Positions 3,535 to 59,820 of a stretch of 64,000 nt of DNA are shown here, piece after piece. The stretch lies in the IMG/VR virus record IMGVR_UViG_3300049043_000067, positions 1-64,000 of that record; one strand, given 5' to 3'. This stretch comes from a virus. A model generated the notes under the pieces. That model made no database searches, had not been told where the DNA came from, and saw only the letters and a list, made by a program, of their open reading frames with translations. Position 1 is the stretch's first letter, and every line of letters begins with the position of its first letter. Made by a program: the position numbers and the translations under genes.

Positions 3535-4947
3535 TCAGATGTCGGCCGTGTTGATAGTGATCACGGTGCCGTAGGAGGGCTGTTGCGCACAACCCGTGCG
3601 GGCATCGACGGCGACCCAGATCAGGTCACGGTCGAAGTCAGGTGCGGGCGGGATGCCTGCTTCGAGATCCGTGAACACCAGCACCCGGTCACCCGGCAGC
3701 CAGTGCTCTGCGGCGAAGCTAAGCGCCGCGTGGAACGAGGTGCCACCGCCAGCCTCGTAGCGGTACTCGATCAGCTCGCCGGGCCCGAAGACCTCGGGCT
3801 CGTGTACGTTGTGATCGAATGGCGCGACGATGACGCTATCGGGAGAACGTCTCGCCGATGATGGCGTTCAGCTCAGCGACGTAGGCGTGCGTCACTGCCT
3901 CGCTGATTGATCCTGACTTGTCGATCAGGACGATCAGCTTGCCAACCCCATCGCGTACCGGGGCAGGCATGCGCCACGTGCTCAGGCGGCGCGGCAGCCG
4001 GGCGTAGGTGTATTCCCGGATGTTCGCGCCCTTGCTCAGCGTGTTGCGCAGCACCGCGCGCCAGTCCACCCGGCTCGTGGACAGGTTGGAGACAGCCTTG
4101 CGCAGGCTGTCGCTGGCGGTCCCTGCCATCGTCGCCTCGTGCAGGGCGCGCTGCGTCAGCTCGGCGGCCTCGGCGATCACGCGGTCAGCCTCCTCATCGG
4201 AGACGTCGGCGGGCTCGACCTGACCCCAGCCCTGAGCGAGACCAGCCAGAGGATCCTGTGGTTTGTCACCGGAACCTTCGGGCTGCTTGTCGTCCGGCGC
4301 AGAACCCTCACCTTTGCCGCCGGGCTGTTCGCCGTCGGGCTCCGGCGCAGAACCCTCGCCTTTGCCGCCGGGCTGTTCGCCCTCGGGCTTGTCCTCGGGC
4401 TTGTCCTCGGGCTTGCTCTCGGGCTTGCTCGGCGGCGCGTCTTCCTGCATCGCGTTGTAGATTTCTTCCCACGACGCGTGCCGCAGGGCCTCGATGCGTG
4501 CGGCGGGCCACTTCAGCTCGGCCCCGACCTTGTCGATGGTGACGCAGTCAGCCGGTGGCCGACCGACACCGTCGTCGATCAGGATCTGGTTGATTGCGCA
4601 GTCCATCGCGATGTTGCACCGTGTCCTGTCGCGGTTACCGAACCTCACGTGATGCGCGAGCAGCGGGTGGAAGGCCTCGTGGGCCAGTACGAATTTACGC
4701 TCTTGCGGCGTCAGTGTTTCGAACCACGCCTCGCAGACGTACAGGTTCGCCTTCTCGTCTACGCCCGCCGTCCCCTCGGGCAGCGTGATGATCTCGCGCT
4801 GCATCAGGGCGGATGCGTAGAACCCGTGATCCCGCATGAGCTGGACCAGCGTGGCTCTCGACCGGCGCGAGGTTGCGCTGGCCGATCACGGTGCTGGTAA
4901 TTTTTCGGCGGAACTGTATCAGCCGCCGCTGGATTGTAGCTTGTCAT
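3535..4947 (-). CDS. VWA-domain/putative metallopeptidase protein (frameshifted)
   Basis: About 470 residues. The start at 4947 has a strong AAAGGAGG. The main frame (4837-3836) contains FVLAHEAFHPLLAHH with an HExxH motif; an acidic Pro/Gly/Lys repeat region (GEQPGGKGEGSAP twice); and the VWA metal site LIDKSGSIS (DxSxS). The VWA domain continues in another frame from about 3840 to the stop at 3535 (VLVFTDLEAGIPPAP). There are frame breaks near 3840 and at least two near 4850 and 4915. The order metallopeptidase-like domain plus VWA-like domain matches the DUF2201-type proteins that pair with MoxR ATPases. The ATPase gene lies directly upstream, so they probably act as one chaperone-like complex. 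Confidence 0.8.
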
Positions 4948-4961
4948 TGTAGCCTCCTTTA

Positions 4962-5017
4962 GCTGCTAGTGCAGCGGGGAAGGCCCGCCTCGCGGCGGGC
5001 CCTCTGGCGCTAAACTA
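4962..5017 (-). other. intergenic multi-hairpin element (copy 2)
   Basis: On the minus strand TTTAGC pairs with GCTAAA around two hairpins: GGCCCGCC-GCGA-GGCGGGCC, then a GCTG/CAGC hairpin. It sits after the stop of the AAA+ ATPase and before the ribosome-binding site of the VWA gene. No T-tract follows the GC-rich stem. It is closely similar in sequence to 7130-7188. Confidence 0.55.
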
Positions 5018-6055
5018 GGCGGACGTTTCCGGCGTTGAGCCAGTCACGGTAGGCCTGATGCTGAACGTAGTGCTGCTTCTCAGCGTCAGGTGCGGCGGCG
5101 TCGCGGTTCACGAGACTTTTTACGAAAAATATCTCGATCTCCTTGCTGGGCAGCCGCGACACGAACTTCAGTGCGTTGCCGAAGGTCCGGCGGTCAACGA
5201 GCTGGCTCAGCAACAGCGCAGTCACGTACTGAAGCTCGCGGCGCTCAGGCACGGCCACCGCGTCGGGCGTGGTCAGGATCTCCCGGACGTTGCCGATCTG
5301 GCTCCTGAGCTTACGGAAGCCGTTGAACGCGGCCGCCTGTTCGACACCGACCTGCCCGGCGATTGCCTCTGCCTCGATCTCATACGGCAGGCCGAGACCC
5401 ACCGTCTGGGACACCGCGTCCCAGCTCCGCGGCGTGGGGTTAACATCGCGCTGCGGGTCGTAATTGTGCAGGGCCTTCTCGCCCGCATAGTCTATGTAAA
5501 ACGTCACCGCTGGGTCGATCCCGGCCCCGGCAGCGTGCTCGACCCAGTCATCCTTGCCCACCTGCAGGCCCACAACCGTCAGGCGGTTGAGGTACTGGCC
5601 GGGCAGACGCGTCGAACCAGCGCGCGATTTCGCCGGGTTCCACGCCGAGACGATGGTCGTGAACCGTCCGATTTCGTGGTCACCTGCACGGCGGTCGAGG
5701 TGCAGGTTGGCGCAGGCGTTCTGCATCGACAGATGGGCCTGCCCGATTTCGTCGAGAAGCAGGACCCGCTTGTCGTCGCCTTCCGGCAGGAAGCGCGGGC
5801 GAAGCCACCCGGCATACTGACCGTCTGCGAACATGCCACCCGACAGGTCCGTCGGGTCGCGCATGCTGGCGAGGAAGGTCTGGGTGTATACCCGGACTTG
5901 CGGGCGGCCTGAGCCACCAGCGACGACTTGCCGATGCCCGGCTCACCCTCGACGCCGACGCGGATGTAATCCAGCGCCGGGCCATTGCGCAGGGCGACCT
6001 GCTCGTTGTGCCGGATGACGCTGGTGAGGAACGCAGTGAAAGCCTTAGGACGCAT
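5010..6055 (-). CDS. MoxR-type AAA+ ATPase (frameshifted)
   Basis: About 348 residues from ATG 6055 (GGAGACTAAGCAATG). Walker A is GEPGIGKSS, about residue 37; Walker B is VLLLDEIGQAH. Later STRLPGQYLNRLTVVGL fits the AAA+ sensor/arginine-finger region. The frame breaks near 5880-5900, between the Walker A part and MRDPTDLSGGMFADG. Neighbours are the VWA/metallopeptidase gene (3535-4947) and a third gene (6214-7113). MoxR ATPases with VWA partners are known to act as chaperone or maturation systems; the target here is unknown. A hammerhead-like RNA lies in the leader at 6088-6142. Confidence 0.85.
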
Positions 6056-6087: not shown

Positions 6088-6142
6088 GGCCATCATCAGG
6101 CTGCACGTTATGCAGCGACCGGATTAACATCCGGTTTCGGCC
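6088..6142 (-). ncRNA. hammerhead ribozyme-like element A (type II)
   Basis: Read on the minus strand: GGCC (open stem II), GAAA, hairpin CCGGAT-GTTA-ATCCGG (stem III), TC (cleavage site GUC), hairpin GCTGCA-TAACG-TGCAGC (stem I), CTGATGA, T, GGCC (stem II return). All conserved core residues are present. The only blemish is one extra T between CTGATGA and the returning stem II, which may be a sequencing indel. It lies 33 bases upstream of the AAA+ ATPase start. Confidence 0.8.
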
Positions 6143-6170: not shown

Positions 6171-6222
6171 CTCAGGCGGGGATAAGGTGGAGAGGTCACC
6201 CTCCCCACCGCGATTACCTGAG
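6171..6222 (-). other. stem-loop at gene end
   Basis: Outer stem CTCAGG / CCTGAG (6171-6176, 6217-6222) encloses a 10-bp hairpin with one mismatch (6186-6195 / 6200-6209). It overlaps the last codons of the gene at 6214-7113 and lies just upstream of hammerhead element A. It is probably a 3'-end structure; no T-tract follows. Confidence 0.45.
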
Positions 6223-7113
6223 GAGCGCCGACATCAGTCCCGACGCTTTGGTAAGTGCATCTGTCCGGATAGTATCGGACAGTTTCAGGTGCTCGGCGTC
6301 TACCGCGCCCAGCGCTTCCATCTCGGCGCAGACCTTGTCAAACTCCGCGTCACCCAGAAAATTGAGCGACCGGCATATCCCAGCAATCTCACGGACATTG
6401 CTGACCGTAGACTGCCAGAACGCGCCCTCGGTCCGGATCCCGGACGGCGCGGTCGGATCCGCCACCTGCTTGTACCGGCCGACCGCCTCGACAAAGCGCT
6501 GCAGGACCGCAATGGCGCGGTCCCGGGCGTCTTGCTGGCTTTCCCTGAAGGTTGCCCTCGATCTCAGCCTGCAGGTCCAGCCGCATCGCGGCAGCCTCAT
6601 CGGCAGCCAGCGCAAGGCGGAAGTCTTCGTCAACGTCGGCGACGGGCATGAACCCGACGCGGCAGTCGAACAGGCTGCGCACCTGATCTTCGTCCGGCCA
6701 TTGGTGTCCGACGTAGGACTGCAGCCCGTTCAGCCGTGCGATGGCCTCGGCGCGGATCGTCGCATACTGGCCGACGAAGCGGTCAACCGTGGCCCTCCCA
6801 TTCGCCGACGGCAGCGGCCAGTTCCGCCTCCACCTGCTTCACCGCGGGCATAGGGCAGGATCCTCACACCGGCGGCTGCCCACGGCGCGCTGTAGTGTTC
6901 AACGACGCGGCGCACACGCTGGGCGTGCTTCGCGAGGGGCTTGAGGTAGTCCTCAGGTACCAGCCGCACGACCGCGTTGACGGTGCGGTCGGAGGCTCCC
7001 TTGTCCCGCCTCGACCTCGGCGGACAGGCCGCGCGATGTCTTTTTGAAGGACGGGGTTCTCGATGCGCGACGTACACAAGGCACGCGCGCGACTGCAGGT
7101 CCATCTTTGTCAT
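6214..7113 (-). CDS. third member of MoxR/VWA module (DUF3150-like?, frameshifted)
   Basis: About 300 residues, broken at several points (near 7030, 6850, 6780 and 6540). Recognisable pieces in order: MTKMDLQSRACL; RTVNAVVRLVPEDYLKPLAKHAQRV region; FDCRVGFMPVADVDEDFRL; and the C-terminal part ending TKASGLMSALLR. Mostly helical. Its position next to a MoxR ATPase and a VWA protein, with a helical N-terminal region, recalls DUF3150 proteins found in similar phage and ICE clusters; I infer this and cannot confirm it. The Shine-Dalgarno is weak (AGAGACTAAGAC). Confidence 0.6.
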
Positions 7114-7129
7114 GTCTTAGTCTCTCATT

Positions 7130-7188
7130 GGCTGCGCTAGTGCAGCGGGGAAGGCCCGCCCTAAGGCAGGCCCTCTGACGCTAGACTA
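7130..7188 (-). other. intergenic multi-hairpin element (copy 3)
   Basis: On the minus strand a GC-rich hairpin GGCCTGCC-TTAG-GGCGGGCC (one G-U pair) is followed by TTCCCC and GCTGC-ACTAGC-GCAGC. It matches the element at 4962-5017 over most of its length, but stem changes are partly compensated. It lies between the gene at 7186-7504 and the start at 7113. Confidence 0.55.
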
Positions 7189-7504
7189 GCTCACGAGATC
7201 GACCCACGAGGTATCGACCGCGTTGCGTTGCTTTTCGATTTCGATATGCGCGGCGCGCAGGTCGATGAAGCGTGCGGCGTCTGCCAGCACGTCACGGCGG
7301 GATGTCCCCGGGTCCAGTACTGAGATGAAATGACCGGCCTTGTCGTGCACCCGGCCGCGCCAGCACGGCGCGCGTGTGTTGGATCCACCGGCCCCGGCTG
7401 ACACCTGTGAAGGTGTCAACGCCTCGCCAGACGGTCACGACGCAGTCGCCGATGATGGCCTTGTAGGTGTCGGTTGCCACCTTCGTCACTGGTATTTTCG
7501 TCAT
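7186..7504 (-). CDS. hypothetical protein (frameshifted)
   Basis: About 105 residues from ATG 7504 (AAGGAGACAAACATG). The N-terminal part MTKIPVTKVATDTYKAIIGD to GRWIQHTRA continues after a frame break near 7370 as CWRGRVHDKAGHFISVLDPG to the stop at 7186. No family recognised. Its leader contains hammerhead element B. Confidence 0.6.
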
Positions 7505-7523: not shown

Positions 7524-7577
7524 GGTCTCATCAGGCAGCGCCTTACGCTGCGACCGGGTTAAGCCCCGGTTTCGACC
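7524..7577 (-). ncRNA. hammerhead ribozyme B (type II, complete core)
   Basis: Minus-strand order: GGTC, GAAA, CCGGG-GCTTAA-CCCGG, TC, GCAGCG-TAAGG-CGCTGC, CTGATGA, GACC. Stem II (GGTC/GACC, open), stem III (5 bp) and stem I (6 bp) are perfect. CUGAUGA, GAAA and the GUC cleavage site are intact, and A15.1-U16.1 can pair. The 5' half overlaps the last codons and stop of the upstream gene (7559-7816); the 3' end lies 19 bases before the next ATG (7504). Self-cleavage would separate the two messages. Confidence 0.9.
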
Positions 7578-7816
7578 TTGTATGCAGCCACCTGCAGGAC
7601 GGCGGCCTTTCTTTCGCCTCTGGCAAGATACTGAGCCTCCTCAGGCTCCTCAGTCAGGAATGCCTCCCGGATGTCGGTCGTGAACACGTTGTAGTTGGTC
7701 AGGTAGTGCGGCACGCCGCCGATCTTTTTCGTGATCGCGTATTGCCACCGTACCCCGGCGGCACAGGCTGCTTCGATCAGTGCGACGGCCAGAAAAATTG
7801 TTCCGTTGTTTTGCAT
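7559..7816 (-). CDS. hypothetical protein
   Basis: 85 residues from ATG 7816 (GGAGACGAAAATG). The N-terminus is hydrophobic (IFLAVALIEAACAAGV), then WQYAITKKIGGVPHYLTNYNVF. No family recognised. Its C-terminal codons (KVETGA-stop) form stem II and stem III of hammerhead B, so RNA structure and protein sequence constrain each other here. Confidence 0.65.
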   Translation of the reverse strand: MQNNGTIFLAVALIEAACAAGVRWQYAITKKIGGVPHYLTNYNVFTTDIREAFLTEEPEEAQYLARGERKAAVLQVAAYKVETGA

Positions 7817-7826: not shown

Positions 7827-7881
7827 GTTGGTTTCGACCTGCCTCGGTCTCATCAGGCACGCGGCATCAGCGTGCTACCAG
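7827..7881 (-). ncRNA. hammerhead ribozyme-like element C (type III topology)
   Basis: Minus-strand order: CTGG, TA (cleavage triplet GUA), hairpin GCACGC-TGATGCC-GCGTGC (stem I), CTGATGA, hairpin GACC-GAGGCA-GGTC (stem II), GAAA, CCAAC. Stem III is open and short (UGGU/ACCA, 4 bp including A15.1-U16.1). The core is complete, but stem III is weak and its 5' strand can also pair upstream, so confidence is lower than for B. It lies 10 bases before the ATG at 7816. Confidence 0.65.
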
Positions 7882-40196: not shown

Positions 40197-43169
40197 ATGC
40201 CTATTACCAGTGATTTCGAGCTGGCAGCCAGCGCGCCAGATGATGCCCTCGCGCAGGCCGTGCGCGACCCGATGTCGTCACCTATCTCTCAGATCGCAGC
40301 GCTGTCGGAATTGCGTAGCAGGCAACAGCTTCGTCAGGAAGCGGCGGCAGCTCAAGGCGCGCAGACCGGTACGGTGGCTGACAAGATCCTTGCGCCCGTC
40401 GGGTATGCAGACGGCGGTATGGTCGAGCAGCCTCAGGAGAAATCGAACTTCTTCGACGGCCTGACGTCCGGCATGCCTCTCGGCATAATGCCGTGGGCAC
40501 TGAACAAGATCTCCGACGGCGACGGCTGGAAGCTCGGGGCCATCGGTCTCGCAAACGAGCTGTTTGGAAAAAACAAGAAGCGTCCGCCGGTCGGCGCTCC
40601 GATGCCTGTCGGCCCGGAGATTGCTGGCCCTATGCCGGTTGGCCCGCAGCCTGTCGGACCGCAGCCAGTCGGCCTGCGCAATGGCGGAATTGTCCAGCAC
40701 TTCCGGGATGGTACTGGCGACAAGCCCGTAACCGCCATCCCTGAGTCGTACATCAAGCGGATTGCGTCCTACGAGGGACAGAACAACCCCAACGCAAGAA
40801 ACCCGTTCGGAACTGCGTCTGGCCTGTTCCAGATGATCGACTCGACGCGCGCGTATCTGGACAAAGAAGTATGGCCTTGACCCGAAGGACAGGTCGCCAA
40901 AAACAGAACGCAAGCGGATGGATTTCTACACTCGCGAAACCATAGATCAGCTTGAGAGGAACAACATCCCCGTTACTGGTGGCACGATGTACGGCGGCCA
41001 CCTGATGGGGCAGCGCGGCGTGACTGACTTCTACAAGGCCTATCAGGCCAACCCGGACATGCGCGTCGAAGACTTCTTTCGCCTGAGGTGATTCGCGTCA
41101 ATCCTGACATCTTCAATCCAAAGGGCGGCAAGAAGCGCGAGACGCTCGCGCAGGTTATGACGAAACTTGATCAGGTTGGTGGCGGCACGTCGAAGACACC
41201 GCGCTCGGCGGAGGACATGAACCTCGGTGCAGCGATGCAGGTTGCCCGGCGCGCTGACCGTGGCGACGTGGGCCCGGGATACGAAGACGCAAACATGAGC
41301 GCGGCAATGGGGCTTGCTCGCATGTTCGAGAGGCCAAATACGCAGCAAGCACCGCAGCCAAAGTCGCAGCCTCAGTACGCCGAGGATCCGACCCTCGAAA
41401 GCCTGTACGCCGCAATCGGTGCGAGATCTCGCCAGAACCAGACCGCAGACACCGGCGAGGATGAGCAGACGATTGAGGAGATTAACAATCAGGTTCGTCG
41501 CAGACTGGCTCAGTTCAGGGCGAGCGCGGCGGGCGAAGGCGCAGGGTTCCGCAACGGCGGGATTGTGCAGCATTTCAAGGATGGCAGCCGTGGCGGCGTG
41601 AGCATGCCTGATGGCAGCTATGTCCTGCCGCTGCGCGGGCCGTATGACAGGCCGGGTCCGGGCTACGACCCGATGGCATACACCGGGACGGTGTTAGGTC
41701 AGCCTGATATGCCTCCCGCAGACGAGCCTATGACAGGAGCCCAACTCCTGTCGGCGCTGCTCAGCCGGATCCAGACTGGGAGCATTCCGAGCGAAAACCC
41801 TATTGGCATTCTCCCGCCAACGAGTGTGATGACCAACCTGCCATTCGGCAGAAACCCGCTCTCCTCGACTAAGGGCGAACCATCGGGTCTGAACTTCGAG
41901 AACCCGTTCTCACTCACTGGTGAGCCAGCACGGGATTGCTAAAGAACAAGCTGCGGCTGCCGAGCGTGAGAGATATTACACGGAGGTGTTGCCTGCGCGC
42001 GAAAGAGAGAAGCTGAATGCGCAGCGCAGAGCGGCAAGGGGCGAACCTGAGCCCGGCGATAAGTCGGTTATGATTGACTACATTCCCGACCCGTACGCGC
42101 CGGGAAGGTCTATGCCGCAAAAAGCAACCGCCCCAAATGAAGGTTTCTCTCTGGGCAGAGATATTGCGAAATGGTCCGAGGAAAACCTTGTGCGCCCGGA
42201 GCCGAAAGCATTTATGCGCCGCTCGGCGATTTTGCCACCGTACGAGGAGACACCTATGGGCGTCGGCGTTCCGTACAATATGTACGGGATTGGACGCGAA
42301 CTTCTGGGAGAGGGGGCCGGAGCGGTCCAGTTCGGTCTGGGTTTAGCTGGAACCGGAACTGGTGCGTTACTCGACCTTCTGGCTGGCTCCGGCCCAGAAG
42401 CCAGAAAGTGGCTGACCGACCAGCGAAAGGATCAACCCGTCGCCGAGAAAAAGAAACCACCTGTCGCGGCAAAGCCGCCCGCTGGTGCCGGCGCCAGCCA
42501 GCCAGAAACCCCCCGCCGCCACCGTATCCCCTGTCAGGGACACAGGCGTCGCTGGAGGATCGAGATCAGGCACCGGGGATCAGGTTGCGCCACCCGCCGA
42601 AGCGCCAGCCTACGGCCCCACAGAGCAGTTTGTGCGCGACCTGTACAAGGACGACGCCGCTCGTCTTGAACGTGCTGCGCGCCGCGAGGAAGAACTCAAG
42701 GCGATGGCTCGCATTCAGGCTGGTCTCGCAATCGCCTCGGGTGACTCGCAATACTTTGCGAAGAACCTCGCGCGGGCCATCCCGGTGATGGCTGACTACC
42801 AGAGGCTCGTGCCGGTCGACACCGAGGCCGATCAGTTTGAGCAGCAGTTCCGCGAAGGCTTGCCGGTGCGCGCGGCATCGACATACAGCAGGGTGAGCTG
42901 ATGAAGCGGGCTCAGGCCCAGAACGCGGCAGAGATCCGCAAGGCGGAAATCGAGGCGCTCGGCAAGATCGAGGAGGAGCAGATGAGAGGTCGGCTGACCG
43001 ATCAGCGCGCCATCGAGATCGTGAAGGAAGTATATACGAGTGGCGCAGCTCAGGTGCCGGACGAGTACAAAGATGACCCCTTCCGTATTACGCTCAGGTG
43101 GCGGCGAAGCTGAAACGATCAATGACGCCGATTGTCCTGAAGCGAGCAAAAACCGCACTCGGAGGCTGA
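40197..43169 (+). CDS. internal virion protein with transglycosylase-like domain (frameshifted)
   Basis: About 990 residues. PADGG-type motif (YADGGMVEQPQ), GLRNGGIVQHFRDGT, then about residue 180 IASYEGQNNPNARNPFGTAS GLFQMIDSTRAYL, a lysozyme/SLT-like core with the catalytic-type Glu in ASYEG. It continues to GGTMYGGHLMGQRGVTDFYK, a second NGGIVQHFKDG and helical C-terminal parts ending KRAKTALGG. Frame breaks near 40875, 41090, 41935, 42500 and 43090. It would locally open peptidoglycan for DNA ejection. Confidence 0.72.
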
Positions 43170-43172
43170 TGA

Positions 43173-46100
43173 ATGCCTGAGATCAGGGTCCCAACCGCCG
43201 ACGGCTGGTTTCTCACGCTTTGACATTGACGGAGACAAGCCGTCTCCGGAGCAGCAAGCCCAGATCAGCGATTATGTAAATCTTTACAATCAACAGTACC
43301 CGGCAAGTCAGGCCTCGTCTGCGCCGCAAAACGAGATCGGTCCGTGGAGTGCCGGGTGGAAAAACCTGTACGCAGATACCACGACTGCCGCGTCGGGCAT
43401 CGCGCAGTTCTTCAATGCGCCTGAGGCCGCTAAGCGTCTGGAAGATGAAGCCAACGCCGTGCGGGCGGATGTGGCCAAACGCTACAACCCCATCGACCTA
43501 GACCAGCTCAGCATCGCGAACACCCCGCAGTTCCTGTACGAGAACCTCGTCTCGTCTGTGCCGTACATGATCCCCGGCCTACTGACTGGTGGCGTGGGCG
43601 GTCTGGCGGCGCGAGGCATCGGGCTCGGCGCACGCGGCATCGCGGCGGCTGGTCAGGCAGGCTACGTCGCGGGAACCGTCCCGACCTTCACCGGGTCGAT
43701 GGCCAGCCGTCAGGCGGAAGAGCAGAACATCCCGCTGGCTCAGGTTGACTGGGGCAAGGCGCTGGCTGCGGGCACCGCCGCCACCGCGCTCGATCTCGTG
43801 ACACCGAACGTCCTCGGCCTGTTCGGCCGCCTCGCGTCTCGCGTGAAGGCTGGCGACAAGGTGGCAACAGAGATGCGCTGACCGAGTGGTGGAAGAACCT
43901 GCCGAAGAGTGCCAGTCAACGCGATGGCCTCGGAAAGGCATCACCGAAGGCGCACAGCAGGCCATCGAAATCTTTCAGGCAAATCCTGAGAAGTTCTACG
44001 AGTTCGACAAGGACACGCAGAAGGAGATCGTCACCGCCCTTATCGCTGGCGGGTTGCTCGGTCCCGTCTTCGAAATCCCCGCGGGCGGCTCTGGCCTTCA
44101 CGCAGTCCCGCGAGGAGCAGGCACGGCAGAAGCGCTTCGAGGCGCAGCGCAACATCGACAGCGCCATCGTCAGTGGCGACAGCAGGAAGGCGCCGCCGCC
44201 ACACAGAAACTGGCAGACGAGTACTCGCGCGCCATCGCGACAGAGGCCCAGTACGCGCAGGACGATATCGCGGACGCCTGCCAGTTCGGCCCGGACACGC
44301 CGCGCTACAAGCCGTCCGAGGACATGGCTCGCTTCAGGGCCGAGGTCATTGTCTCTGCCACGCCGGTACCCCGGCGTCAGTTCCGGTGGCTGGTCGCGAC
44401 GGGGCGAGACCAATCTCCGAGCATCCGTCGCCTCGACTCGGCACGCAATTCCGCCCAGACCCTGAATGATAGCGCGCCGCATTCAGCCTCAATCCTTGAG
44501 AGCTTCCCCGTCATCCCCGTCGAGCCTGTCTGCGACCACGCGTGAGGCGCTGGTCCGCAAGCGGTACGAGATGGGTCAGGCAGAATCTGGACGCCAACAC
44601 GTCTCTGACCGAAATCAGGAACCTGCTCGGCGATGCCTTCGCAACAGCCGAGAGCCGTCTGGCGGACCCAAATGATGCCGGGCGACCCATACCGCCCACG
44701 TCCATCTTCTCGCCTGTACGGTCCGCTAAATCGGATGTCGAGGCCGAGTCAAAGCCACTCAAGACGCCGACATTGACCGGGCTGTGGCTGACCTCGCCGC
44801 CGCCGAGAAGGCCCCGACTGAAACCGCAGTCAAGAAGCCAACGCCGGTCAACCCGACCACTGGCACGCCTATCAATAAACCACAGACAGGTCCTGTAGAA
44901 CCCGGCGCGTATGACGCCGCCGAGATGGCTCAGGCCGCCGACGCCCTGAACGAGCCAGTCGATGAGGAGTTCCCCGGGTTCGAGCCCGGCGAGCTGGGTG
45001 GCGCAGATTACGCACGCAGGCGCGCGCGTGGTGCCGCGCGGGCTGAGCCTCAGGCCGCACCCGCCGCCGCTCCGTCGCCTGAGGGACCGCGGTTCTCGGT
45101 ATCTGAAGTGGACGCCGTCACGGCGGAGACTGTCGGCAACGAGGTGAATGAATACGAGATCTTCAAGGGCGGCAAGCGCGTAGCCACCGTCAAGGGTCTG
45201 GCCCCGGCGCAAGAGCGCGCCAACAAGATGATGCAGGCTGAGCCGACGTCTGACGTCAGGGTCAGGCCGAAGCGCCGCGGGTTCGCTGTAAATGAATACA
45301 GAGGATCCAAAGACGGCGATGTGTTTCTCAGCACCGTCAAGACCTTCAACACCCGGGCCGAGGCTCAGGCAGACGCGGACGCCCGCAATCAGGCGCGCAC
45401 GGCCCGCGCAGAAGAGCGCACGGCAAACCGCGAAACCATCAAGCGGATACGAGAACCTGATCGAGAAGCGTCAGGCGGTTGTCGGTCGGCTGATGGCGAG
45501 GTCTCCGCTCGCTGGGTGCGCCGGATATGGCGCTCAAGCTGCGCTCGCTCCTGTCGGCCCCTGACAGGGCGAACGACCCGGCATCGAGGGATACTACAGC
45601 CACACCGCGAAGCTGATCGCGCTGGCGATGGACATCTACGATCCGAACATGACCGAGGACCAGATGTTCGCCCGGATGGTGGGCGTGCTGGATCACGAGT
45701 TCGTGCATCACCTGCAGCGTTCAGGCGCGTTCTCGCAGGCAGAGTGGAAGCAGATCGTCAAGTACCTGCAGAACAATCAGGCCTATGGCCGCGACGGCAG
45801 CGTGATCAAGGGCCAGACGTGGTGGGAGCGTGCGCGCGACCAGAACCCGCGCGAGGATGGCGAGAGCGACGCCGAGTACGCGTCGAAGATCGCGCGCGCG
45901 AGGCAATGTCCGAAGCGTTCAGGTCGTGGGCGCAAAACAAGAAAACAGTTACAGCGAAACCGGCCAGCATTTTCCGGCGCATCGTCGAGATCATCAAGAC
46001 GCTCAGCCGGTTCGGCAAGTCTGATCCCCGCGTCGAGCAGATCTTCCGGGAGATCGACGAAGGCAAGCGCACCGGTGTCGTGAAGATGAGAACGCCGGAT

Positions 46101-49100
46101 ATGGGCGGCGTTGACTTTTCGGCACGTGATGTTAATGTGCCTTTCTCAGGAGGAATAGATGTCCAGCAAGAACGCGAAGGATTGGGACCCGAACGGGCCG
46201 GAGACGGAAGAGGACGCAATCGAGGCAGAGGCTATGCGCCGCTTGCAGGTGTTGCGACTGTCAAGGGTGCGACCGGGCCAGACCCGGGGCTCGTGGACGT
46301 CGCGGAGTCTTATGCACTTGCCGCAGGCATCCCGCATCGTCGGCAAGCTGAATACGTCGAAGTAGACCCCGAGCGCGCCGCGCGCATCGCGGACGCTTAC
46401 GCGGAGATGAAGCACGACCCTCAGAACCCTGAGGTGAAGGAAGCGTATGCGGATCTGATCCGCCAGACAAAAGACCAGTATCAGGCGCTGGTTGACGCTG
46501 GATACAAGTTTACATTCTTTGATAGTGCTACGGACCCGTACGAGGGGAATCCGTATGGCGCGATGCGCGACCTGCGGTCAAAAAAGCAGATGGCCGTTTA
46601 TGGAACGTACGACGGCTATGGAACCGAAGGAATTACCGGCGCGGCAATCGAAGACAATCCGATGCTTGAGCCAACAGGTCTTCGGTGGCCAGATCAAAAA
46701 GGGTTCATGCGCCCAGTCACAGCGAACGACCTGTTCCGTGCGGTTCACGACGCGTTTGGACACGGGCTTGAGGGGGCAGGGTTCAGGGCGCGCGGCGAGG
46801 AGAACGCGTGGCAGGCGCATGTCAGGTTGTTCACCGGCCCCGCAGTCAAGGCCATCACATCGGAGACGCGTGGTCAGAACTCGTGGCTGAACTTCGGTCC
46901 GTACGGAGAGAAGAACCGGACGGCAAAGCTGGAAGACACGGTATTTGCTGAGCAGAAGACCGGCATCATGCCGGAGTGGACGTGGACAGAGGGTCTCGCC
47001 CCGGATGAGGTGATGGAGTCTAAGTCCGTTGGATATAACGATCCGGATCCCGGCGAAGCCACCGCTGTAGAGCGCGGGATTCAGGGAAAGTCTTTTGACA
47101 ACGCGCTTCGGTGGGTCGCTGAGAATGCGCCAACGGAAGATTACAAGGAGATCGCTCGCGGCGTAGAGCGGACAATGCTGGCCCTCAAGGGGAAGGGTTA
47201 CAAGTTCTCGATAAAGGTTGCTCACATTGGCGACTCGGTTCCTTCGACGCTTATAGGCAGTCGCGGCATTGCAAAGGTAAACGTTAACACCGGAAATACA
47301 GAGGTCTGGCTTAATGGCGCTGATGTCACCGGGTCAGTCGGCGTAAGCTACGAGACCGCGCTGCATGAGATGATCCACGCCGTTACTATGGCGTCGCTGT
47401 GGGCTGGGAATCTCAAGTCAATGGACGGCACGAAGGTCCAGAAATTCACCACCGATCTGTACGCCGTATCAAACGCGGTAAGGGCTGAGTTCAATAAGCG
47501 GGTCCGCGAGGTTGGCGTTGACGGCCTGTCTGATTTCGAGGCGAAGGTTTATAATCGCCTGAACAATGCAATCAACACCGTCGATGAGATCCTCGCGTGG
47601 GGTCTTACCAACCGCGAGATGCAGCGATGGCTTGATACAATACCGTACAATAACAAGACGCTGTGGGCGTCCCTTGTTGACGCAATCCGTCGGCTGCTCG
47701 GGATAAGCAGCGACAGGCAGACTGCGCTGTCTGAGATAATCAGCATTGGAGACAACCTGCTGAGCCCGGACATTGTGTCGGATCTTCCTCAGATTCCGGC
47801 ACCGGCGTCGCCACAGCGCGGCGGCGCTGCCGCAGCAACAAGCGCCCGAATTGACATCCCCGCAGAGTTCCAGAATGGCCGTGGCGGTATCGACTTCTCT
47901 CGCCGCAACCTAGAACTCCACACGATGTTCACGGACAACGTCCTGCCTGAGGACGTCAGTGGCAGGCCGTTCCCGGACAAAAGCGGGACTTACGTCGAGT
48001 ACCAGATCAGACCTAAGGGCAAGGTCAAGGAGCTGGGTCAGCTATATGGCAGTGTGCCGGAGAGTGACCCGACTACATTCTACGTCGAGTGGGCGAGCTT
48101 TGACCCAGACGACATGACGATGGCCGAGACAATCGGTCTGATCAACTTGCTGGGAAAAGATTTCCCAAACATCAGGACCATCACCGGCAAGCGGATCTCT
48201 GGCGCGAGATACGAGAACCGATCAGAGCGTGCGAAGGCTGCACTGAAAAGGATGTCGGCTGCCGAGAAGGCGTTATCTATTGAGCTGATGGCGCGCACAG
48301 ACGCGTCAACCGACGCCGCCGAGAAGGCATTCCGCAAGCGGTTTTTGGTGCTGCACCTCGCTCACCCCGAGCTGGTAATCAACGCGGCACGTCGTGACTT
48401 GCCTGACCTATTCAATGAAGACACACAAGCCAGCCGCGAGTATTACCTCGCTAAGGCTCTGGCCGAACAGGTGTCGAAGCTGAGCACGGAGCAGACCATC
48501 AACGTCGGGCGCATGCGCGACCGCGGCATGCTGGATTTCTCCCGTCGCCAGAAGTCAGTGATTGCCACCGTCGAAAAGACGAAGGCTGAAAAGAAGTCTA
48601 TGGCTCAGCGGATCGCTGACCTGAACAGTGAAATTCAGAGCAAGCCTCACTTGTTTGAGGCGATCATAAATGTGTACGGCGATCAGGTCATGATCCCGCG
48701 TGAGATCACGCGGGGCGCACCAGAGATCAGGCGCATCCTGCCATACCTGAGCACGGAAGAGATCGGCACGACCAATGCTGTCGGTGCACGCGGCCTGATC
48801 CAGATGTTCAATAGCGTTCCCAGCAAGGAAGAGATGGCGGCTGTAGCCATCAGCGGCAGGGCGAAGCGCGGGTGGTATGAGAACTCGGCACGGGCACTGA
48901 TCAGCGTGTTCGGTAGGGAAGACGCTCCTAGGTTCTCGGCACTACTGGCGGCGCTGTCTCCGCAGACGTCCGTTCAGGACAACGCGATCAACGCCTTGAA
49001 TGTCTGGGTGAACTGGGACAAAGCCGGTCGCCCGACGGACAGGGCGACAATCATGCGCATTATGGGCCAGAGTGTTCAGGGCACGAAGGGCGAAGGCTCG

Positions 49101-52100
49101 GTGCTCGGCGCGTGGAAGAGTAACTCGGTCACCGCATTGCAGGCGCTCGACCCGCACTCGATCATTATCAGCGGGAACAAGGTCAACTCGTTCATGAAGA
49201 ACCTGAACGATGTCGTGAACGCGGTGACAAACGACGCGTGGATGGCGAACTACGCGGACGTCGATCAGGACAGGTTCAAGGGCGCGTCCTATCACGGATA
49301 CAGCGCGAAGGTCCGGCAGGCGGCGGAGGTTGCAACCGAGCTGACAGGCTACGTGTGGACGCCGCGCGAGATACAGGAGACTGTCTGGTCGTGGGCAAAG
49401 ACAACGTATGAGCTGCGCAAGAAGTTCAGGGAAATGCAGGTGGAGGTGCGTCCGTTGGAGATCTGCTGCGCGCTGGCAGGGTAACCAACGCGATGATCGC
49501 CAACACGCCTGATTTCGCCACACTGTTTACAGACGGCGTCTACAGGAACATACTTGAGCGCGGCGGTTACGGACAACAGATCGACAGGATCATCAATGAC
49601 AACCGAATTACAAAAGGCTCTGGATCGCTTGATGCAGCATTTGGCCAGCGGTCCGTCTATGACGCCGAAGGAACAGGCATTGCTGAAACTACTTACCGAG
49701 GATACCTCGACACAGCCGCCGGACGTCTTGAGCAGCGATACCAGCGACGCAAGGCAGAGGCCGCCGCAAAAAAGCAGCAAGGTCTAGAACTCGACGAAGG
49801 CGAAGACGCCGACGCAGACTACTCGCGCAGGCTGGTGGACAGCACCGAGTTCATCGAATGGTTTGGTGACAGCAAGGTTGTCGGATCCGACGGCAAGCCG
49901 CTCGTGGTGTTCCACCGGGACATCGCAGGCTGACATATTTGAGCTTGTCAGATCCGCCTTCGGAATACACGTCGCGCGCGCATTGATCAGGCGGAAGACA
50001 GGTTCACCGGCCTCGGGCGGGCGCAGGCGTCGTTTACCCGCTGTACGCGCAGGACAACGAACCCGCTGCAGGCTGGTCATGAATTGCGAAACGCAGCTGG
50101 GCATGATCCGGTTTACAATCGACAGCCAGCGGGCGTGCTGGCGGTATCCTGTCTGATCGAAAACCCGTACATATTCGAGCGCTCCGGCAGAAGACCGGCG
50201 CAAGATGAAAGAGCATCCAATCGGACGAGCGGTCAGGCTGACGCGGAAGGTGGCCGTACCCCATCAATGCGTGGATCAGGGCAAGAACTTAAGGCTTCGG
50301 GGCATGCTGGCATCGCGCAATGCGGTCACGACGGCGGGGCCTCGCTGGGCGACGCGCATGCGATGGGCTCGTTCATTGCGTTTGACCCGGAGCCAGATCA
50401 AGTCAGCCATCGGCAACCGCGGCACGTTCGGCCTGAACGAGAAGCGCATCGACTACTCGCGCCGCCCGAACCCGCTGACGCCGCAGGAAGTGTCTGAGGT
50501 AACTGACCGCCTGAGATACGGACTGATCCGCGACCAGATCGCGAACGCCCTGTCGCGCACGAAGAAGTACACCGGCATCGACGAAGAGATCGCCAAAAAG
50601 AAGAGCAGCAAATTCTACGAGAACTTCATCGACCACGCGCTCCCGCTGGGCGATATGGTCGATATGGTCCGCGAGAAGAAGGGCTCCATCCCTGACATGT
50701 TCGACGCCTACCTTGCCCAGCAACTCTGGTCATCGAAGGCAACGGACCACCTGAAGCGTCTGGAGCGCAGCCTCTACAGCCCGATCTACCGCGCGATCCG
50801 CGGGCTGCAGGTATCTGACGCCGACGTCGCTGATTTCAAGAAACGCTTCCCGTCTCCTGGCCAAAGTCATAGACGCGTCCGGGGACAACCGGAACGGCAC
50901 GCTGTCGGCCCTGCTCTACGCCCGTCACGCGCCAGAGCGAAACCTCGTAATCAATTCTATGAACGAGGGCCTGATGCCAAACGGATCCGGCGTGCCCACC
51001 GCGGAGGCCAACGCCGCCGTGAAATGGTTCGAGAACCGGATGGACTCGGGACAAGTATCGCGAGGCCGAGATGCTCGTCCGCAAGGTTGTCGATGAGACG
51101 AACAACATCCGCGTGAAGTACGGCCTGACGCCTGACTTCAGGAAGATGCAGGCCAACCCGCATTTCCAGAAGGCGGGACTGCCGAACGGATACAAGTACT
51201 ACGTCCCCCTGCGCGGCATCATCGAAGAAGACATGCTGCCCAACGATCTAGAGCTTCAGCGCCTGCGGACTGGTGTCGGGTTCAAGCTGAACTCGAAGGA
51301 AGACCTCACCGCGATGGGCCGTGACAAGCTGGCCAACGCAGTGGTCGAGCATGTCATCCTGCAGAACGAGGTGTCGGTTGTCCGGGCGCACAAGAATCAG
51401 GTCGGCAACTCGCTGTACAATCTGGTCAACGCGAACCGCGACATGTTCAAGGGCATCCTTGAGATCGTTGAGAAGGCTCCGACGATTCGCCGGGTCGGGA
51501 AGGAAGACGGCATCGTCAGGCTGATGCCGGATGCAAACTACATGAACTCCGACGAGTACTTCGTCACGAAGATCGGCGGCGAGAACAAGGTGATCAAGAT
51601 CATTGATCCGCGTCTGGCTCGCATCCTGAACGGCAACACCGGGTACGGTGACGAGGGCCTGCAGAAGGTGGTGAACTTCATCGGCGGATACACCCGTCTG
51701 ATGAGCCGACTGGCTACCGGCCTGAACCCTGAGTTCTGGATGAAGAACACGCCGCGCGACGTGATGCTGGCGTCGATCAACATCAATCAGTACGGCATAC
51801 CCGGACTGTCGGATGCGCTGGTAAAGAACTGGATCCCGGCGTGGCGGGCAGCCAAACGGGCCAACGCGTCGGACTGGAACTACGTCAAGACAGGCGAGGA
51901 GAAGTACGTCCCGCCCGTCACCGAAGACGACAAGATGTACGCCGAGTTTCTGGAAGATGGCGGCTTCACCGGGTACCTCGGGCTTCATGATCTTGAGACG
52001 CGCATCGCGGACATCAACAAGCAGATCACGAAGGGCGAGGGCAGCAAGCTCGCCGAGGGCATCGAGGTCGTGAAGCGCTTCGGGGACTTTGTCGAATCTT

Positions 52101-53422
52101 ACAACAACGTGCTGGAGAACGCGACGCGCTTCGCCGTGTACAAGACGCTGCGTGAGGCGGGCATGCCCCGTGATCGTGCGGCTCAGGCAGGCAAGACGGT
52201 GACGACCAACTTCAATGCCGGTGGTTGGTACAAGAACATGATCAACCCGTTCTACATGTTCTACAACGCCAGCATTCAGGGGTCGATTGGCATTCTCACG
52301 GCGGGCGTCAGATCGAAGGCGGTGCGCAAGATTATGGGCGGCATCATTGTCGCTGGCACCTGCAGGACTCGTCGATGGCGGCACTGAGCGACGAGGACGA
52401 GACCGGCGCGCTCAAGTACGACAACATCAAGGAGCACGTGCACCGCACGCACATGATCTTCCTCGACCTGACCGGCATGACGAACGACGGCTTCATCAAG
52501 GTGCCGATGCCGTACACGTTCAACGCAATATTTAACTTCGGCCGGGCGATGGCGAAGTACGCACGCCATCAGGCAACGGGCGGTGACTTCGATCTGGCGA
52601 AAGCGGCGGAACAGCTCGCTCGGCACGCTGATTGATGCGACCAATCCGCTGGGCGGGGACGAACTGCCGATGAACTTTGTCGCGCCGACGTTCCTGAGAT
52701 CCGGTCGTCGACCTGACAATTAACAAGGACTTCGCGGATCGCATGATCGTGAAGCGCCCGATGGGTACAGGCGTGGACCTGCCGTCGAGCCAGCTCTACC
52801 TGAACAGCACGTCGCCGATGTTTGTCAGCATTGCCGAGTTCATTAACAGCTACACCGGCGGCACGGACGTCATACCGGGCTACGTCGATATGTCTCCCGA
52901 CGCGATGCAGTACCTGTTCGAGTACTACCTCGGCGGCGCGGGTGCCTTCGTGCGACGCGTCGCGGACTTCGGCAGCGTGGGCGTGCCGTCGGCGCTGCAG
53001 GGTGAGTTCGATGACATCGAGGTCGGTCAGGTGCCGTTCGTCCGGGCGTGGGTCGGTCAGGCCCCGTCCGGTGCGCCAGATGGAACGCTACCTCGAAGTA
53101 CGCGACGAGATCCTGATGATCGGCAAGGAGCTGGAGACAGCGGCCAAAGCCTCCGACATAGAGCGGGTCAGGAGTGTCCCGTGAGAATTACCAGAAGCAA
53201 TTACAAGTTTACGGTGTAGTTAAGGGGGCCGACCGCCAGCGCGCGTCGATCACCAAAAAGATTGCGCAGATCAAGAGCAACGACCGGCTCTCGGCGGACG
53301 TGAAGAAGGACCTCATCAAGCGCCTCCGCGAGCAGGAGGAGCAGGCGATGAACCGGGCAGTCACCGCCTACAACCGTGTCGTCGAAGGCATGAGCATCCC
53401 AACCGCAGGAGAACTCCAGTGA
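43173..53422 (+). CDS. giant polyvalent virion protein (frameshifted, about 3,400 residues)
   Basis: One reading line of 10.2 kb, the largest gene here. Domains in order: N-terminal part with a Gly/Ala-rich hydrophobic region (about 43560-43820); Ala/Lys/Glu helices; metallopeptidase 1 with HEFVHHL (about 45694); a domain with TANDLFRAVHDAFGHG and RGEENAWQAH (about 46715-46820); metallopeptidase 2 with HEMIHA (about 47367); a helical region with SALLAALSPQTSVQDNAINA (about 48940); an ADP-ribosyltransferase-like start EFIEWFGDSKVVGSDGKPLV (about 49850); and a large C-terminal region (50400-53422) resembling polyvalent-associated LPD38. D(F/Y)S(A/R)R linkers sit between domains. About fifteen frame breaks. 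In polyvalent proteins such domains are injected with phage DNA and act on the host. Whether it is one chain or cleaved is unknown. Confidence 0.75.
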
Positions 53423-53801
53423 CCACCTTCGCCGAGCGCACCAAACGCAGCCTGAAGGGGTGCACCCCGATCTGGTTAAGGTCATCGAGCTGGCACTCAA
53501 GACCTCCTCCGTGCCCTTTCTGGTGACCGAGGGCCTGAGGACCATCGCCCGGCAGCGGGAGCTGGTGGCGGCCGGGGCCTCGACCACGATGAACAGCAGG
53601 CACATCACGGGTCACGCCGTCGATATCGTGCCCATCGTGGGTGGTAGTATCTGTTGGAAGACACCGGCATTCAAACAACCGTTGGACGCCATCCGGCAGG
53701 CAGCCAAAAAACTCAAGGTTAATGTCGAATTTGGCGCTGACTGGCGGTCCTTCAAGGATTATCCTCACGTCCAGTTAAGTCGCAAATCACACCCGGTGTA
53801 G
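53419..53801 (+). CDS. endolysin, M15 peptidase family (frameshifted)
   Basis: About 127 residues from GTG 53419, overlapping the previous stop. TEGLRTIARQRELVAAGAST, SRHITGHAVDIVPIV (zinc ligands His and Asp) and the C-terminal DWRSFKDYPHVQL (third His) give the M15 L-Ala-D-Glu/D-Ala carboxypeptidase pattern. One frame break near 53458. It cleaves peptidoglycan peptides at lysis; partners are the spanins and a holin candidate. Confidence 0.88.
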
Positions 53802-53805
53802 CCTC

Positions 53806-53922
53806 ATGACATACGCAGACGCGATCATTGCCGCCTTTACCGCGGCCACAGTCCTGACCAGCGCCAGTCTCGTTGCGTACACGCGACACCGAGCGACAGC
53901 GACAAATCCTACCAATCGGTAG
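53806..53922 (+). CDS. very small membrane protein
   Basis: 38 residues: MTYADAIIAAFTAATVLTSA SLVAY, then a basic tail (TRHRATATNPTNR). One membrane helix, starting 4 bases after the endolysin stop. A holin-like or lysis accessory protein by position. Confidence 0.5.
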   Translation: MTYADAIIAAFTAATVLTSASLVAYTRHRATATNPTNR

Positions 53923-53925
53923 ATA

Positions 53926-54085
53926 GTGCTGGAAAATCGATAAACTTGATCAGATCGAGCGGCGTCTGGATGAGGCGATCAAGCGCCAAAAAGAAATCAT
54001 CATCAAGATCGAAAAGATTAACGCCGTGAAGGACGCGAAGAAGTCTCAACAGACTGAGTCGGGACAAGACGGGAATGAAGATTGA
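53926..54085 (+). CDS. small coiled-coil protein (start frameshifted)
   Basis: About 52 residues ending in DKLDQIERRLDEAIKRQKEI IIKIEKINAVKDAKKSQQ and an acidic tail. GTG 53926 runs into a stop unless a base is corrected near 53937. The strong heptad pattern supports a real gene. Function unknown. Confidence 0.4.
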
Positions 54086-54329
54086 CCTTCACGCAACCAG
54101 CACAGTCGTTGCGATCCTCGGGCTGCTGATCACAATCATGCTGGGCTCGATGTGGATGGGCGAGCTATCCAACTCAGTGACGTACCTGAAACAAACCACA
54201 GTGAATGGCGAGCGCATCGCGCGGATTGAGGCGAGGCTCGAAGCGCTGGTGGACGGCCAGTCAAGGCTGTCCCTTGCCATCGACAGCCTCGCCACTCGCA
54301 TCGACCAGACCGAAAACAGACCGCGATAA
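54075..54329 (+). CDS. small membrane/coiled-coil protein, possible holin
   Basis: 84 residues from ATG 54075. Membrane helix VVAILGLLITIMLGSMWMG, then a coiled coil (RIARIEARLEALVDGQSRLS). It overlaps the previous gene by 11 bases and the convergent gene at 54261 by 69 bases. Lysis-cluster context makes a holin or anti-holin possible. Confidence 0.55.
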   Translation: MKIDLHATSTVVAILGLLITIMLGSMWMGELSNSVTYLKQTTVNGERIARIEARLEALVDGQSRLSLAIDSLATRIDQTENRPR

Positions 54330-54479
54330 CGCGACCTCTTCGAGGGCGATGCTGAGCAGACTGGTCGCAAAGCGCACAGCCTGCTCAGGCGTCATCGTGT
54401 GCAGGACGCAGTCGTGGTTCTCGGCAATCACGATCTCCGCCCGCCCCTGACCAGTGGCCCGGGGATACACAATCAGCAT
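54261..54479 (-). CDS. small hypothetical protein
   Basis: 72 residues from ATG 54479, with a very strong GAAGGAGGATAAGTAATG. EIVIAENHDCVLHTMTPEQA VRFATSLLSIALEEVA. Last gene of the minus block; its end overlaps a convergent gene. Unknown function. Confidence 0.6.
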   Translation of the reverse strand: MLIVYPRATGQGRAEIVIAENHDCVLHTMTPEQAVRFATSLLSIALEEVALSRSVFGLVDASGEAVDGKGQP

Positions 54480-54643
54480 TACTTATCCTCCTTCGTACCT
54501 CGCAGCGGGATCATGTGGTAGATCTCCGCCCACTGGTACGCCTTGCACGCGACCTTCACCGGCGGGCGGGGTGCCGCGCCGAAGATGTATCCGGTCACGA
54601 ACACGCGCGAAATAACAACGATCTTGAATGCAGTGTCGTTCAT
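54479..54643 (-). CDS. small hypothetical protein
   Basis: 54 residues from ATG 54643 (AGGAGAGACCAAAAATG). FKIVVISRVFVTGYIFGAAP, then VKVACKAYQWAEIYHMIPLR. The stop overlaps the next ATG. Unknown function. Confidence 0.55.
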   Translation of the reverse strand: MNDTAFKIVVISRVFVTGYIFGAAPRPPVKVACKAYQWAEIYHMIPLRGTKEDK

Positions 54644-54941
54644 TTTTGGTCTCTCCTGTCTGATGAGGTCCGTGCTCTCCGCCGACCTGTTTCTTCTTCC
54701 TAGGCGCTGAACTAAGCGGGTAGTCCGTACCCTGCGGGTCACCTTCCTCGTACACGGCATTGTGCCTGATCCCTTCGATCATGCTCATCGCTGCGCGGCG
54801 TGCCGCCGAGCGGAAGCTGTACTCGATTGATGACCGGGCCAGTATAGACCCGACCGGGTTAATAAATTCCCAAAGCCATCCGTCATCACCGCGGCGATAA
54901 ACGAGCCTGAACATCTTTTTGTTCGTGCGGGTCTTTCTCAC
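54483..54941 (-). CDS. small basic protein, probably ends early
   Basis: GTG 54941 overlaps the integrase stop (GTGA). The believable part is MFRLVYRRGDDGWLWEFINP to NAVYEEGDPQGTDYPLS, about 75 residues. The rest of the frame overlaps the gene at 54479-54643 entirely and looks unlike protein, so a missing base near 54710 is likely. Conserved function not recognised. Confidence 0.5.
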   Translation of the reverse strand: MRKTRTNKKMFRLVYRRGDDGWLWEFINPVGSILARSSIEYSFRSAARRAAMSMIEGIRHNAVYEEGDPQGTDYPLSSAPRKKKQVGGEHGPHQTGETKNERHCIQDRCYFARVRDRIHLRRGTPPAGEGRVQGVPVGGDLPHDPAARYEGG

Positions 54942-55786
54942 AGTTTCTCAAGCCTCTCGATTGCGTTGGTTGTCAGCTTCGATTTGTTGGCTGACTTGAT
55001 GTACTTCATCGTCGTCGTCGTTGACTGGTGCCCGGTGACCGACATGATCTCCGGCATCGAGCAGCCTGCCTCGGCGAGGCGTGTGGCGCAGAACTTCCTG
55101 AGGCCGTGGAACGGCTTGCTCACCCCGATCTTCCGGCAATACCTCATGTAAACCCGGTAGAAGGAATGCTTCGTCACCTTGCCGAAAAGCGGCTTGCTCG
55201 ACAGCGCGCGCTTCACGAGGTCGAGGTTCGCCGTCGAGGCGGTGAGCGGCATGTCAATCACCGCGCCCGTTTTGGACTGCGTGTACGCGAGATGTACACG
55301 GTCATTCTGCTTGTAGAAATTCAGGTGGTTCAGCGAGAGGATGTCGCCGCGACGCATGCCGGTGCCTGCCGCAAACAGGACGATGTCACGCATCACCCCG
55401 AACTCAGGGCCAGAGATCGCCTTGTCAACGTCCTGTGGCGTCCACGGTTCCCACTCGCCGACAATCTTCACGGCGCAGCGCGACCACGGCACGCCGCCGG
55501 TGATCTTGCCGCGCTTGCGAGCGTAGTTGATTGCCGCAGACGCGAGGTTCATGACCTGAGACTTGACGCCAACAGGCAAGGTCATGTTACCGATGTCGTC
55601 AGGCGACAGCGCCGCCGCGCTGCGGTCTCCGTAAGAACTTATCAACGTCGTCGCCGCGCGTGCGTAGATGCGGCGCGTCTCAGGTGCGAGTTCAAACCAC
55701 CTCACGGCAAGGTAGTGCCTCGTTATCGCGCTGACAGATCCGGCCTTGTCGGTGTCTGTAATTTGTAGCTCATCAGGTATGGTCAT
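54938..55786 (-). CDS. int: tyrosine recombinase / integrase
   Basis: 282 residues from ATG 55786 (AGGAGGGAACTATG), intact frame. N-terminal SAM-like core-binding part, then catalytic residues: Arg in GTGMRRGDILSL, Lys in TQSKTGAV, His-x-x-Arg in FHGLRKFCATRLAEAG, His in VTGHQST and nucleophile Tyr in MKYIKSANK. All are present, so it is likely active. It would integrate the genome or resolve dimers. The next genes are translationally coupled. No repressor or clear att site is seen beside it. Confidence 0.92.
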   Translation of the reverse strand: MTIPDELQITDTDKAGSVSAITRHYLAVRWFELAPETRRIYARAATTLISSYGDRSAAALSPDDIGNMTLPVGVKSQVMNLASAAINYARKRGKITGGVPWSRCAVKIVGEWEPWTPQDVDKAISGPEFGVMRDIVLFAAGTGMRRGDILSLNHLNFYKQNDRVHLAYTQSKTGAVIDMPLTASTANLDLVKRALSSKPLFGKVTKHSFYRVYMRYCRKIGVSKPFHGLRKFCATRLAEAGCSMPEIMSVTGHQSTTTTMKYIKSANKSKLTTNAIERLEKL

Positions 55787-55798
55787 AGTTCCCTCCTC

Positions 55799-56302
55799 CT
55801 AGCAGTGTATGTTACCGAACCCGCCGTGCTCGAACGCCGAGACGGGTATGGTCATCATGATCCCCTTGTCCTGAGGATCGTTGCGGTCAACGCGACCGCC
55901 AAAGAAAAACCCCGGCTTGAAGCCAGCCTCGCTCTTGTAAGGCGAACCCGGGTAAAAGATTTTGGGCAGGTCAAGCCACCTGACCTCGCCGTGGCAATCG
56001 CGAACGACAAGCCACACCTGCAGCCCCATCATTACGTGAATGGCCAGCACGCAGAACTTGTCGCAATCAATGAGCGCGCCACCGTATCGGCTCATCTTCT
56101 CCCACGACCAGTCATCCGCCCGGCACTTGACCTCGATCACGCCGATCACGCGCCGCGATCCGCGCTGGATCATCACGTGATCAATGGCCGAGAACTTCTT
56201 CGGCACCTTCTCGTAGTCGTATCCCTTCTCGTCGGCGAACAGCCGGGCAACCTCGGCCTCGCGATCAATATCAGCCTGCGTCTCGTATCCGTCCGACCTC
56301 AT
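55799..56302 (-). CDS. PD-(D/E)XK nuclease-like protein
   Basis: 167 residues. KFSAIDHVMIQRGSRRVIGV IEVKCRADD carries the D...ExK active-site pattern. The rest includes YGGALIDCDKFCVLAIHVMM and a C-terminal part ending GNIHC. Likely a resolvase- or VRR-NUC-type nuclease. ATG 56302 overlaps the stop of the preceding gene. Confidence 0.65.
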   Translation of the reverse strand: MRSDGYETQADIDREAEVARLFADEKGYDYEKVPKKFSAIDHVMIQRGSRRVIGVIEVKCRADDWSWEKMSRYGGALIDCDKFCVLAIHVMMGLQVWLVVRDCHGEVRWLDLPKIFYPGSPYKSEAGFKPGFFFGGRVDRNDPQDKGIMMTIPVSAFEHGGFGNIHC

Positions 56303-56733
56303 TAGCGCAGCTCCGTTTCGAACTGGTTAACCAGTTTCATGAATTTGTCCCGCGCAGACTGATTAACCTTAAGATCAGCCCGGCTGGTTATGTTCAGGTA
56401 TCGGCGCAAGGCGGCGGCTGCGTGGTCTTCGCTCACGTCATCGGCCAGACCGTTGTTCAACAGCCAGACCTGAAACTCCTGACGCGCGCACAGCATCGCC
56501 GCCATCGTCACCACCTTGCGGGCCTTGTCGGCTTCCGGGTTAGGAATTACAGACCCGTCATCGCCAGTGCGCACCATTGCCACAACGTACCGTGCGCCAA
56601 CCCAGTCACGGAGCAGGCTTTCAGGCACGTCGTTGGGATGGATGCTCAGCTTGAGGACGTACCCGTTTTTGTCTTGCGTGATGCTGAGCTTGACGGCTTC
56701 GAAATTGACGGCGTCATCGCTGGGGTTTGGCAC
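56302..56733 (-). CDS. conserved phage protein
   Basis: 143 residues from GTG 56733 (GAGATACAGGAGTG). KLSITQDKNGYVLKLSIHPN DVPESLLRDWVGARY is a pattern shared by many phage replication clusters; the function is not known to me. Helical C-terminus. It lies among recombination and nuclease genes. Confidence 0.65.
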   Translation of the reverse strand: MPNPSDDAVNFEAVKLSITQDKNGYVLKLSIHPNDVPESLLRDWVGARYVVAMVRTGDDGSVIPNPEADKARKVVTMAAMLCARQEFQVWLLNNGLADDVSEDHAAAALRRYLNITSRADLKVNQSARDKFMKLVNQFETELR

Positions 56734-58332: not shown

Positions 58333-58346
58333 CGACTTGATCCACC

Positions 58347-58997: not shown

Positions 58998-59001
58998 TGG
59001 T

Positions 59002-59341: not shown

Positions 59342-59394
59342 ACCTCCCCCTCCTCCTCGCCGCTGGCCGCTGCCGTCGCCAATCTTATTGACCA

Positions 59395-59544: not shown

Positions 59545-59665
59545 AACTGATGCCTCCCTCCTCCGCTGCCGTCACTAACGACCGTTATCTCGGTCACTGT
59601 TGTCGTTACTGCCTAAACCAATGGCCCGCCGGACTATTGCCAGCGTGTTGCGCTCGCTGCGCCGG

Positions 59666-59809: not shown

Positions 59810-59820
59810 CCTGCTCCTCC

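Follow-up and report, generated by a model that had tools for sequence, protein, structure and literature searches.

Clustered hammerhead ribozymes in prophages were described in 2011 by Perreault et al., who suggested that they serve to process transcripts into operon- or gene-length mRNAs (PMC3088659). Three of the prophage tandems cleave in vitro and one of them, the Agrobacterium triple, also cleaves in E. coli; the same authors pointed out that not all of the hammerheads need be active and that RNA circles or spliced products, though undetected, were possible (PMC3088659). Publications from 2011 to 2023 describe what hammerheads do in bacteria and phages as unproven or open (PMC3088659, PMC6155905, PMC10085705). 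The locus considered here lies in a stretch of 64,000 nucleotides (the window) from a viral record of 64,268 bp that bears integrase, terminase and portal genes. It is alike to the prophage clusters of Agrobacterium, Azorhizobium and Clostridium scindens in that several hammerheads flank single genes on one RNA, the prophage elements having been tested to cleave (PMC3088659). It differs from them in the composition of the group, in which a type III hammerhead is followed by two of type II, and the viral arrays related to it are denser (up to 28 elements) and stand in register with stop codons.

The minus strand of the window from 7577 to 7524 forms a complete type II hammerhead, with all core residues and a GUC site, that reads GGUC-GAAA-CCGGGGCUUAACCCGGU-C^GCAGCG-UAAGG-CGCUGC-CUGAUGA-GACC. 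Stem II (GGUC/GACC, 4 bp, 7577-7574/7527-7524) is open, and stem III (ACCGGG/CCCGGU, 6 bp, 7570-7565/7558-7553) and stem I (GCAGCG/CGCUGC, 6 bp, 7551-7546/7540-7535) are closed by loops, as the type II topology requires. The residues C3 U4 G5 A6 N7 G8 A9, G12 A13 A14, the A15.1-U16.1 pair and the NUH triplet are all present, with G12-A14 at 7573-7571, CUGAUGA at 7534-7528, the pentaloop UAAGG of stem I at 7545-7541 and C17 at 7552, which places the predicted scissile bond between 7552 and 7551. The minimum-energy structure computed by ViennaRNA is exactly the hammerhead fold (-25.6 kcal/mol, z -3.1). A strict descriptor applied in all three permutations to both strands found two hammerheads in the window, and 784 dinucleotide shuffles of it yielded no hit. 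A third appeared when one inserted base was allowed after A9. For the covariance models, hammerheads were gathered from public viral contigs by pattern and descriptor; the type II model (R1), built from 39 viral relatives with the window sequence left out, scores the 7524 element at 74.6 bits (E 8.7e-19). When the window was searched with R1 with the filters off, nothing apart from this element and the one at 6088 described below reached 12 bits. The identity of the element as a real type II hammerhead, which is predicted to self-cleave, is thus confirmed by descriptor, model and fold together, in agreement with the earlier note on this DNA, which had reported the same core and three stems with correct coordinates and the correct cleavage site. 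The remark in that note that cleavage would leave the next start 26 bases nearer merely restates the cleavage position and means little.

Rfam model RF02276 reaches only 26.1 bits on this ribozyme, with an E-value of 0.015 for a 2-kb search, and its gathering score is 37, so that Rfam misses an element which our own model recognises clearly. With the type II hammerheads of RF02276 (PMC3088659) the 7524 ribozyme shares the permutation, the core, the GUC site, the setting at a phage gene junction and the proposed processing role. In contrast to the common RF02276 form, in which loop I and the 3' tail pair as a pseudoknot, its loop I is a U-N-A-N-N pentaloop and its stem II has 4 bp and is directly preceded by an A; the pseudoknot, a trait common though not universal in type II, is absent, as UAAGG has no complement of at least 4 nt in the tail. 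Many of the type II relatives fall into one of these two forms, the remainder being variants or unclassified. In the pseudoknot form, loop I is complementary to the tail after stem II, which mostly has 3 bp. In the UNANN form, to which the 7524 ribozyme belongs, there is no pseudoknot, stem II has 4 bp and the loop is usually closed by G-C and has G as its fifth position. The A immediately 5' of stem II is found in 62 of 63 members of this form, and in 39 of 39 once those in which it belongs to an adjacent stop codon are set aside, which suggests that it makes a tertiary contact. At its threshold RF02276 found 7 of 13 ribozymes of the pseudoknot form and none of 27 of the UNANN form at the same 13 loci; the current Rfam thresholds therefore hide a large share of these ribozymes.

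The earlier note listed one of the three hammerheads of the window and missed those at 7880-7829 and 6142-6088. In the order of transcription on the minus strand, a type III element (7880-7829) is followed by the type II elements at 7577-7524 and 6142-6088; all three share the coding strand of a single gene block, a Shine-Dalgarno sequence with ATG follows shortly after each of them, and the window thus holds an array in the sense of several hammerheads at gene junctions of one coding strand. The second type II hammerhead (6088-6142, minus strand; R1 56.2 bits, E 1.5e-13; z -4.45) has one extra U between A9 and stem II and its predicted scissile bond between 6117 and 6116, and it occupies the space between the end of the third gene (6214) and the start of an ATPase gene (6055). 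The type III hammerhead (7829-7880, minus strand) has the full core, closed stems I and II and an open stem III, and it is found by the descriptor as well as by a type III covariance model (R2) built with the window left out (54.8 bits, E 1.2e-13, match spanning 7884-7825). Its site is GUA, with the predicted scissile bond between 7876 and 7875, and a 4-bp pseudoknot is possible between UGCC of loop I and GGCA of loop II. It shares its permutation with the sTRSV-like type III ribozymes and differs from them by this possible pseudoknot and by its location in a phage mRNA leader instead of a satellite RNA.

The first gene of the block, an ORF of 85 amino acids of no known family (7559-7816, minus strand; ATG at 7816, preceded by GGAG), begins 12 nt after the 3' end of the type III element, which thus lies in its leader. 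It ends AAG GUC GAA ACC GGG GCU UAA (K-V-E-T-G-A-stop), and these last codons traverse stem II, GAAA and stem III of the 7524 ribozyme, with the UAA (7561-7559) in loop III; 19 nt of coding sequence lie inside the ribozyme and the last six codons lie in or at it. The overlap of the 5' half with the end of the upstream protein had been reported correctly. The next gene (7186-7502, minus strand; ATG at 7502, SD GGAG) is read in two frames and is followed on the same strand by the third gene (6214-7113), the ATPase gene (5010-6055; phrog_1297, with the frame broken near 5885) and a large gene for a putative DUF2201_N metallopeptidase (3836-4837). The mid-gene frame changes, which affect 5010-6055, 6214-7113 and 7186-7502, are probably sequencing or assembly indels, and the ribozymes themselves are intact. 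The earlier note placed the 7524 element between two early genes; it does lie between two genes, though to call them early goes beyond the evidence, the block merely running opposite to the terminase and portal genes. No relatives of the ATPase or of the 85-aa protein were found in the viral contigs, and a 3-kb region compared with known phages gave no match.

In the relatives, too, the ribozymes stand in register with stop and start codons. Of the type II hammerheads, 143 had flanks long enough for this comparison; in 114 of them (80%) a same-strand ORF of at least 50 codons has its stop within -8 to +3 nt of the ribozyme 5' end, as against 4% for random positions from the same loci and 16% for type III in the same analysis. 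Compared by permutation, with Fisher tests, the register is found in 119/149 of type II, 66/139 of type I and 4/31 of type III; these collections were selected by pattern, with intact cores required, and the counts by type are not population frequencies because the scan patterns favoured GGTCGC and GCCTGATGA. Covariation among the relatives is not used as evidence, the selection itself having required those pairs. A start codon with a Shine-Dalgarno sequence follows mostly 15-31 nt past the 3' end of the type II relatives. The codon overlap at 7524 is unusual by this measure, as the stop mostly abuts the ribozyme and only a minority of ribozymes have it deep inside (+16 to +51), where it lies in the window.

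The densest array, in one viral record of 64.8 kb (L266, the record of L117), packs 28 type II elements into about 19 kb (42.6-61.2 kb), and 19 of its 27 inter-ribozyme segments hold a single ORF that terminates at the next ribozyme. Over 41,500-61,400 of this record a ribozyme stands at most gene junctions and is followed by AGGAG and ATG at a near-constant spacing. Several other viral contigs have arrays of 8-12 type II elements, and contigs of named bacteria also carry type II hammerheads; Sphingomonas sp. NFR15, for instance, has three. Type III is the 5'-most element in each of the five arrays where it occurs together with type II (the window, L075, L134, L231 and L238). Three other viral contigs (L280, L306, L341) have 6-8 type I hammerheads each in gene-junction arrays, and in a further one (L136) the match of a type III hammerhead adjoins that of a type II, with a few bases of overlap.

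The best explanation of this arrangement, which we consider probable, is that the hammerheads cut a polycistronic phage transcript into monocistronic mRNAs. The leftward block of this temperate phage would be transcribed as one RNA with at least three self-cleaving hammerheads, of which the type III element would trim the leader of the first message and the type II elements would cut at gene junctions to give shorter messages. After a type II cut the upstream message would end near its stop codon in the stem III hairpin with a 2',3'-cyclic phosphate, and the downstream message would begin with a 5'-OH in the stem I hairpin, its Shine-Dalgarno sequence lying further along. At the 7524 element, half of the ribozyme would be unwound by ribosomes that complete the 85-aa ORF, and the cutting may for this reason depend on translation. 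Segmentation of the block would be incomplete because the junction 7186-7113 has no hammerhead. The role in mRNA separation proposed in the earlier note is thus the best-supported reading, by virtue of the junction register in many viral contigs; it remains a matter of inference, and the processing idea itself dates from 2011. By geometry, cutting leaves hairpins at both ends in type II, at the upstream 3' end only in type I and at the downstream 5' end only in type III, and the hairpins may protect the message ends. The prediction from end protection that type I is restricted to transcript ends was rejected, since type I forms junction arrays too, and this part of the model failed; the weaker relation that survives, a link of closed stem III with gene junctions in pattern-selected collections, may be taken as a lead.

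In one alternative, a regulated switch, translation of the upstream ORF sets the cutting: a ribosome at or near the stop blocks folding, and heavy translation yields uncut polycistronic RNA, lighter translation cut RNA. The stop codons that abut or overlap the ribozymes, and the 19 coding nucleotides inside the 7524 element, speak for such a switch, which we nevertheless regard as unlikely, because the register alone is equally expected from compact genomes in which the ribozyme is the whole intergenic spacer and because neither a ligand domain nor a conserved upstream ORF was found. The similarity of sequences within an array could also reflect passive or selfish spread, in which cassettes multiply between phage genes, confer no benefit and are merely tolerated; this seems quite improbable in view of the precise placement relative to stops and starts and of the preservation of cores and pairings while stems and loops differ, though the scan took intact cores only.

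Paired hammerheads might instead excise gene-sized RNAs whose ends, sharing stem II strands, are ligated into circles. The stem II sequence is often identical along an array, which would allow an excised segment to pair its two ends, and hammerhead circRNAs are known in retrozymes (PMC4918200). Within the window, however, stem II differs (GGUC and GGCC), and Perreault et al. detected no circular or spliced products (PMC3088659), which makes religation a distinctly improbable account. The Rfam score below the gathering cut-off could be taken as a sign that the 7524 element resembles a hammerhead by chance or is an inactive remnant within GC-rich DNA. Chance resemblance is ruled out by the empty shuffles (0/784) and the E-value of R1, a model independent of the window (about 9e-19), and with three complete elements on one strand we give this possibility practically no credence.

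The segmentation of phage transcripts by hammerheads may be considered on a broader scale. We tentatively suggest, with slightly less than even confidence, a general protein-free mechanism of mRNA segmentation in many phages, in which cassettes between stop codon and Shine-Dalgarno sequence at most junctions of a gene block yield hairpin-protected single-gene messages, the permutation follows position (leaders for type III, junctions for types I and II) and the UNANN subclass missed by Rfam makes up a large share. The stop and start register and the arrays of up to 28 per phage sharpen the processing idea, as they predict that each GUC gives rise to a 5'-OH end and that each gene has a message of its own. 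Less familiar than processing itself are the stop-codon register, the array density and the UNANN subclass; no report of the register or of equally dense arrays was found in the literature searched, which covered few subscription journals and is therefore weak evidence. In synthetic insulators of the RiboJ type, a hammerhead upstream of the start codon gives a defined 5'-OH leader with a hairpin. The phage elements differ in being natural, located at gene-gene junctions and mostly of type II or I, and if the segmentation is confirmed they would be a natural counterpart of these insulators.

Two further features of the window deserve mention. The junction 7186-7113, the only one from the first gene to the ATPase gene that lacks a hammerhead, was matched by neither the type II model nor Rfam, and a very stable structured element is located there (7108-7205, minus strand; -46.9 kcal/mol, z -4.1). 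It is similar in size to a hammerhead, matches neither the hammerhead models nor an Rfam family, and is possibly a terminator, an attenuator or another class of RNA. At 44784-49484 there is an ORF of 1566 amino acids that weakly matches the virion RNA polymerase family (phrog_2206) as well as some families whose function is unknown.
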